From assembly GCA_018826515.1 (NCBI GenBank), contig JAHKAM010000021.1:41237-105236 (forward strand): DNA of 64,000 nt. Reading direction: 5' to 3'. Each line of letters opens with the position of its first letter. The first letter of the stretch is position 1. Positions 40,315 to 41,729 of this stretch are shown one piece after another. The notes beneath the pieces were generated by a model. That model saw only the letters and a program-made list of their open reading frames with translations, did no database searches and was not told where the DNA came from. This DNA comes from Alphaproteobacteria bacterium (lineage in GTDB: Bacteria > Pseudomonadota > Alphaproteobacteria > Caulobacterales > Caulobacteraceae). Position numbers and translations under genes: made by a program.

Positions 40315-40373
40315 TCACGTTATACCGATTTCGCCGCAAAGACCGCGGACAGCGGCTGGGGGACAGAGTCACA

Positions 40374-41729
40374 ATGAGCGACGAGCACAAGCCGCACGAC
40401 GACCACGGCCATGGTCACAGCCATGACGACCATGGGCATGACGCCCACGGCCACGCCGCCCCGGCGGCCCACGGCCATGACGATCACGGGCATGATGAGG
40501 CTCACGCCCCCGCTGAAGCCCATGGCCATGACGACCACGGCCACGACGCGCCCGCCGCGCACGGTGCTGACGACCACGGCCATGCCGAGGCTCACGCTCC
40601 TGCTGAAGCTCATGGCCAAGACGATCACGGCCACGCCGCTCCGGCGGCGCACGGTCACGACGACCACGGCCATGCTGAGGCGCACGCGCCCGCCGAGTCC
40701 CATGGCCACGACGATCACGGCCACGCCGCTCCGGCGGCGCACGGTCACGAGGAGCCCGCCCATGCCGAGGCGCACGCGCCCGCAGAAGCCCATGGCCACG
40801 ACGATCATGGCCACGCCGCGCCGGCCGCGGCCGCGGCTGCGGCCGTAGCCGCGACGGGCGCAGTCGCCGCGGCCGCCAAGCCGCCGGTCTGGAGCGACTC
40901 GGGCGACGCGCCCTTCGAGGATGTCGATACGACCCCGGTCTACGCCCGCGGTTCGGGCGGCAAGAAGCGCAAGTCCGGCGGCGGTTCCAGCAGCGAGGGC
41001 ATGGAGATCTTCAAGACGATCTTCTTCGCCCTGCTGATCGCCCTGGTGCTGCGCGTCGTCCTGTTCCAGCCCTTCACCATCCCGTCGGCCTCGATGGAGC
41101 CGAACCTCTATGAGGGCGACTACATCGTCGTTTCGAAATGGAGCTACGGCTATTCGAAACACTCGATCCCGTTCAGCCCGCCGATCTTCAACGGCCGCAT
41201 CATGCTGCCGATGGTCAGTCATGAACCGCAGCGCGGCGACGTCGTCGTGTTCAAACTGCCGCGCGACAACGAGACGGACTATATCAAGCGCCTGATCGGC
41301 CTGCCGGGCGACCGCATCCAGATGATCGACAATGTGCTGTTCATCAACGGCACGGCGGTCCGCAATGTCGAGATGAGCCGCCAGGACGTGCAGAACCTGT
41401 ACGGAACCCAGACCGTCATCCAGCAGCGCGAGACCCTGCCGGAAGGTCGCGAGATCAACATCCAGGACTGGGGTCCCGGGAATATCTCGGACAACACCCC
41501 CGTGTTCGAGGTCCCCGCCGGCCACTACTTCATGATCGGCGACAACCGCGACAATTCGCAGGACAGCCGCTACGACGAGTCCGCTGGCGTGGGCTATGTC
41601 CCGGCCGAGAATCTGATCGGCAAGGCCGAGATCATCCTGTTCTCGTGGGAGGCCGGCGCCTCGCTGTGGAACCCGATCAGCTGGTTCTCGAAGATCCGTC
41701 CGAGCCGGTTCTTCACCGTTCTCGACTGA
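40374..41729 (+). CDS. lepB: Signal peptidase I with His-rich repeat N-terminal extension
   Basis: Inner-membrane peptidase removing signal peptides from exported proteins. The catalytic part is complete: one helix (about 212-231), the nucleophile Ser240 in PSASMEP, the general base Lys305 in DYIKRLIGLPGD, and the GDNRDNSQDSR box. At 451 residues it is about 180-200 longer than usual because of the N-terminus. Residues 1-150 hold 43 histidines with Asp, Gly, Ala and Pro, in four copies of a 30-residue repeat, then an Ala-rich stretch and a basic Gly/Ser linker (GGKKRKSGGG). With one helix the His-rich part should be cytoplasmic. It resembles metal-binding tails of Ni/Zn proteins; any link to peptidase function is unknown. 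The start ATG follows GGGGGACAG. Confidence 0.95.
   Translation: MSDEHKPHDDHGHGHSHDDHGHDAHGHAAPAAHGHDDHGHDEAHAPAEAHGHDDHGHDAPAAHGADDHGHAEAHAPAEAHGQDDHGHAAPAAHGHDDHGHAEAHAPAESHGHDDHGHAAPAAHGHEEPAHAEAHAPAEAHGHDDHGHAAPAAAAAAAVAATGAVAAAAKPPVWSDSGDAPFEDVDTTPVYARGSGGKKRKSGGGSSSEGMEIFKTIFFALLIALVLRVVLFQPFTIPSASMEPNLYEGDYIVVSKWSYGYSKHSIPFSPPIFNGRIMLPMVSHEPQRGDVVVFKLPRDNETDYIKRLIGLPGDRIQMIDNVLFINGTAVRNVEMSRQDVQNLYGTQTVIQQRETLPEGREINIQDWGPGNISDNTPVFEVPAGHYFMIGDNRDNSQDSRYDESAGVGYVPAENLIGKAEIILFSWEAGASLWNPISWFSKIRPSRFFTVLD
40434..40823 (+). repeat. In-frame 90 bp tandem repeat in lepB
   Basis: Four copies of 90 bp (from 40434, 40524, 40614 and 40704) plus a 30 bp partial copy (40794-40823), all in frame. 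The consensus protein unit is GHDDHGHAAPAAHGHDDHGH followed by AEAHAPAEAH. Copies differ at only a few residues, so unequal recombination or slippage can change copy number without breaking the frame. Confidence 0.92.

Follow-up and report, generated by a model that had tools for sequence, protein, structure and literature searches.

A lineage-specific, acidic and histidine-rich N-terminal extension of signal peptidase I in the Brevundimonas line

The lepB gene found within the 64,000-nucleotide stretch of DNA analysed here (referred to as the window) encodes a real and striking lineage-specific variant of a known enzyme, signal peptidase I, in which the catalytic domain is preceded by an N-terminal extension of approximately 205 residues. 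The variant is apparently undescribed, and a literature search returned no papers on a signal peptidase I with a His-rich or disordered tail. Signal peptidase I, an essential enzyme that serves as an antibiotic target, is generally regarded as having a minimal cytosolic side. The reading favored here, to which a probability of roughly 45% is assigned, is that the extension forms an acidic, disordered, membrane-tethered tail, that its His/Asp/Gly repeats most likely bind divalent metals and respond to pH, and that a short motif within it docks a partner.

The lepB open reading frame (positions 40374-41729, on the forward strand, as are the mapped parts of the gene and its leader described below) starts at an ATG and encodes an intact signal peptidase I of 451 amino acids, the S26 domain of which matches PF10502 with an E-value of 1.4e-51 (175.2 bits, against a curated cut-off of 22.9) and TIGR02227 with an E-value of 1.7e-48 (164.6 bits, against a cut-off of 47). 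Alignment to signal peptidases in the PDB identifies Ser240 (41091-41093) as the nucleophile and Lys305 (41286-41288) as the general base, and both columns are invariant across 43 sequences. The repeat at the N-terminus is followed in order by an Ala-rich linker (residues 148-168, 40815-40877), a basic KKRK patch (residues 197-200, 40962-40973) that fits a positive-inside topology, a single transmembrane helix (residues 206-230, 40989-41063, as modeled by AF2) that directly precedes the catalytic serine as expected of a signal peptidase I, and a complete S26 domain. The protein shares that complete domain and its Ser/Lys dyad with bacterial signal peptidase I in general (LepB/SipS; E. coli 1T7D/1B12), as well as the acpS-lepB-rnc-era gene neighborhood, but differs in that its one helix is preceded by a cytosolic, acidic and His-rich tail of approximately 205 residues, where sampled Alphaproteobacteria outside the family possess approximately 5-47. 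The neighbors pdxJ, acpS, rnc and era were confirmed by Pfam matches and mark a standard housekeeping lepB locus. A full-length LepB search found no second copy in the source genome; many Brevundimonas genomes (for example G072:C49, G100:C1:1419510 and G019:C1:3013015) encode a second LepB paralogue of approximately 50% identity, which aligns only from about query residue 200 onward.

The tail begins with MSDEHKPHDDHG, a start that recurs elsewhere in the His-rich clade, and its first 150 residues (40374-40823) comprise 43 His, 38 Ala, 22 Asp, 19 Gly, 11 Glu and 11 Pro. TRF reports a 90-bp unit repeated 4.4 times at 40430-40829, and its score of 520 far exceeds that of any other repeat in the window. 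Four in-register units of 30 residues occupy residues 28-147 (40455-40814), and a chance origin of this repeat is excluded. A preliminary description of the sequence had listed the same histidine count, four such units with a partial copy, and an Ala-rich and basic linker ahead of an intact catalytic domain; it proves exact on each point, while the mechanism that it proposed is possible but too narrow. The structure predicted by AF2 assigns residues 1-200 a pLDDT of approximately 30-55 and gives the repeat no secondary structure; among His-rich tails generally, hydrophobic residues account for a median of 5.8%, and cysteine is absent. This is a true N-terminal extension on the only LepB found in the genome, and the presence of one helix just before Ser240, together with the basic patch, would place it in the cytosol when read against the established structure of signal peptidase I. 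An assembly artefact was ruled out, because orthologues also carry long His-rich tails, among them one of 272 residues with 71 His in a single-contig genome (G104/L006).

Searches recovered LepB from 129 of 131 Brevundimonas genomes and from 385 of 390 genomes of the family, and the survey of tails covered 123 Brevundimonas proteins (taking the end of acpS as the limit) along with 20 from other genera of the family. The tail before the helix spans 31-292 residues in Brevundimonas, 61-104 in three allied genera, and mostly 15-22 in Caulobacter/Phenylobacterium-type relatives (genus names inferred); judged from this distribution, the Brevundimonas line acquired it late. Among 289 Alphaproteobacteria genomes sampled across the class, no clean match to a His-rich LepB tail was found outside the genus, and the few long alignments to the tail there run through stop codons. 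The preliminary description had suggested searching related LepB proteins for the extension and its repeats, and that comparison recovered long acidic tails throughout the genus and His-rich repeats, with differing units, in a subset. What the genus shares in general is a disordered cytosolic tail, acidic and highly variable in length, that mostly lacks histidine; His-richness (at least 10% His, reached by 29 tails) is a variable feature superimposed on it. The LepB proteins of B. diminuta, B. lenta, B. viscosa and B. alba resemble the one described here in their acidic disordered tail, usually with a WSDxGDAPF motif and a basic patch, while the His fraction across other Brevundimonas ranges from 0 to 26% and the repeat units differ from those of the source protein.

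Under the favored reading, the first 205 or so residues of LepB would constitute a cytosolic tail, intrinsically disordered and strongly acidic, that the N-terminal helix anchors in the inner membrane. The tail may serve as a spacer or bristle around the enzyme, and its near-membrane WSDxGDAPF motif would provide a docking site for a partner in the cytosol or the membrane. In His-rich lineages, Glu, Pro and Val would have given way to His/Asp/Gly repeats held at the amino-acid level, which most likely enable binding of divalent metals (Zn, Ni, Co or Cu) and a response to pH; either would change how charged and how compact the tail is at the membrane. Since residues 1-150 contain 33 Asp/Glu in addition to the 43 His, a shift from pH 7.5 to 5.5 must alter their charge strongly. 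Metal binding in vitro is very likely, and we infer that the tail may bind metal in cells in a way that is relevant to LepB; a contribution to metal buffering would be the simplest consequence, and an effect on peptidase activity is speculative. The most far-reaching form of this proposal is regarded as rather unlikely: within one genus, an essential secretion protease would have gained on several occasions a disordered His/Asp tail that is tethered to the membrane, responds to metal and pH, and bears a docking motif of its own, so coupling LepB or its partners to the metal or acid status of the cytosol. A fast-evolving acidic tail found throughout a genus, with a near-invariant docking-like motif and repeatedly turned His-rich, nevertheless suggests a cytosolic input to secretion, which is not described in the literature searched, and the natural series of His-rich, His-poor and short tails offered by this one genus renders the function of a low-complexity tail directly testable.

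The motif in question (WSDSGDAPF in the source protein, W173-F181, at 40890-40916) was overlooked in the preliminary description, as were the His-poor homologues. In the form [IV]WSDxGDAPF it lies 27-43 residues before the end of the tail and the membrane helix in 83 of 123 tails; it is present in 27 of the 29 His-rich tails and also in short His-poor ones, such as that of B. diminuta, and is missing from the short-tailed B. vesicularis-type clade. The corresponding DNA pattern matches once per genome, at the coordinates of lepB, in 87 of 131 genomes, and a search with that exact pattern found the motif in no other protein of those genomes. Nine residues conserved in a disordered tail that is elsewhere hypervariable are most readily interpreted as a putative docking site. 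The alternative that survives best takes this further, and holds that acidic disorder and the docking motif, whose partner might for instance belong to Sec, membrane insertion or the cell cycle, are the essential parts of the tail, with histidine representing one tolerated route to a long acidic spacer. Conservation of the motif in both His-rich and His-poor tails argues for that proposal, as does their equal charge density: the net charge per residue of the outer tail is -0.207 in His-rich tails versus -0.202 in long His-poor ones, and Asp, Gly and His replace Glu, Pro and Val while the density stays near -0.2. It is weakened by the loss of the motif from the short tails of the B. vesicularis-type clade, and by leaving the stronger constraint on the His-rich repeats (described below) unexplained, and is entertained here as a tentative but serious possibility.

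When a His-rich tail is defined as one with at least 10% His and at least 90 residues (29 of the 141 rows of a catalytic-domain tree), parsimony requires at least 8 gains or losses of that state, at least 5 of which are forced by well-supported branches, although these numbers are approximate, the tree having been produced by a quick method with SH-aLRT support only and many open forks. The expanded units differ by lineage (including HGHDDHGHAAPAA, DDHHAPAAHA, HGHDDPGHAD, AAAHDDHGQ and APEHH), nearly all of them pair His with Asp or Glu, and the periods of 38 of 39 TRF arrays are divisible by 3. Five tails (L030, L032, L033, L044 and L052) are not His-rich yet fall inside the His-rich clade, which indicates that the His repeats are dispensable over evolution. 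Comparison of tails across the genus shows growth by in-frame tandem duplication, with charge density maintained as other residues turn over.

A rival explanation is non-adaptive expansion, in which slippage and recombination among GC-rich codons (CAC, GAC, GGC and GCC) lengthen a permissive disordered tail and the histidine itself serves no function. That explanation is in keeping with in-frame arrays whose units vary widely in length, the very variable length of the tail, the gain as well as loss of His-richness, the correlation between tail length and His fraction (Spearman 0.82), and the His-poor orthologues found throughout the genus. Against it stand the recurrence of the His-plus-acidic pattern from different units and constraint on the amino acids themselves. 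Differences between the 90-bp units fall mainly at codon position 3, which demonstrates that the repeat is translated in the lepB frame; dN/dS for unit pairs is 0.02-0.33 (0.088 when pooled), and for two of the three adjacent pairs amino-acid changes are below those in neutral simulations (P of 0.001 or less), while the newest pair (units 3 and 4) displays no significant constraint (P 0.31). That in-register comparison, made within the source protein, avoids most of the bias that affects comparisons between sister species, for which dN/dS is mostly 0.01-0.17 in His-rich tails versus mostly 0.15-0.53 in long His-poor ones, values to be read with the caveat that low-complexity alignments made on amino acids lower dN and that the pairing of non-orthologous units raises synonymous divergence in the tail above that of the catalytic domain. 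Residue order is also kept beyond what composition accounts for (z of 6-27 relative to shuffled tails), and purely non-adaptive growth is considered possible but doubtful.

The preliminary description had instead envisaged a dedicated metal buffer, or a metal-responsive switch on LepB. Its compositional basis holds, in that the tail carries 43 His with Asp and Gly next to the membrane, is metal-ligand-like in composition, and is constrained at the amino-acid level. Low-complexity regions that combine His and Asp are enriched in Ni/Co-binding prokaryotic proteins (PMC6821194), His/Asp strings in other proteins bind Ni, Co or Zn (PMC6821194; for Hpn, PMC4671568), and Hpn, which together with Hpn-2 is a His-rich protein specific to the Helicobacter lineage, sequesters nickel in vivo (PMC4671568). 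The LepB tail (43 His in 150 residues) is like Hpn and Hpn-2 in its His-rich low-complexity composition and its restriction to a lineage within one bacterial genus, and unlike them in that those are small separate proteins, tied to nickel enzymes rather than fused to a membrane enzyme. The genomic association did not follow: of the two metal-related genes sought across 131 genomes, the Ni/Co permease NicO is encoded in nine, none of which has a His-rich LepB tail, giving no positive association, and CobW is encoded in 130 and so provides no contrast. His-rich tails are moreover absent from most relatives, and a cytosolic tail would need to gate a periplasmic active site, for which we know of no mechanism. 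Metal handling is unlikely as the founding function of the tail, given the existence of long acidic tails throughout the genus that mostly lack His, a physiological buffer or switch is plausible but unproven, and the dedicated version is judged unlikely.

Other proteins of the source genome carry comparable strings. A CDF metal transporter whose N-terminus is His-rich adjoins a CobW/COG0523 GTPase with HDEHCDHDHHDHDHSHHDHDHG (G000:C4:1-4500, L245), and the two likely form a metal-homeostasis pair. The HDH strings of the CDF transporters and the CobW protein, a resemblance that speaks for the metal proposal, are of the same HDHDHGH type as those of LepB (three such proteins in the source genome), but are shorter and reside in proteins with an established metal role. 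A His/Asp-rich loop (for example AHHDEHVHDDHASHAQLETHSEPLADEDHAHDDHAHHGP) is also found in the NuoL subunit of complex I, both in the source genome (G000:C12:150798-151856, L246/L248) and in relatives (L249-L317). This loop contains 10-16 His in all 42 Brevundimonas genomes in which NuoL and the LepB tail were both read, and does not co-vary with the tail (Spearman -0.07), and so lends the metal proposal no support; genome-wide drift toward histidine was ruled out, the loop being present whatever the LepB tail.

The preliminary description had also raised the possibility that translation begins downstream of the repeat, and a mis-annotated start near Met209, which does lie at the beginning of the helix, was rejected as exceedingly improbable on the synonymous pattern within the repeat, the conservation of the ATG, leader and first 12 residues, and the presence of a methionine near that position (among the six residues that open the conserved region) in only 15 of 123 genus members. 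These comparisons give good support to both the annotated ATG and translation of the repeat. Overlapping open reading frames in the repeat (minus-strand 40320-41525 and forward frame 40411-40848) had no Pfam match, and the leader (40344-40373) had no Rfam match at the gathering threshold. Upstream comparison revealed that this leader, with an SD-like GGGGGA at 40358-40363, 10 nt before the ATG, contains a block (GCGGACAGCGGCTGGGGGACAG) common to divergent species of the His clade, and that the 59-nt gap between acpS and lepB is common to many His-rich relatives.
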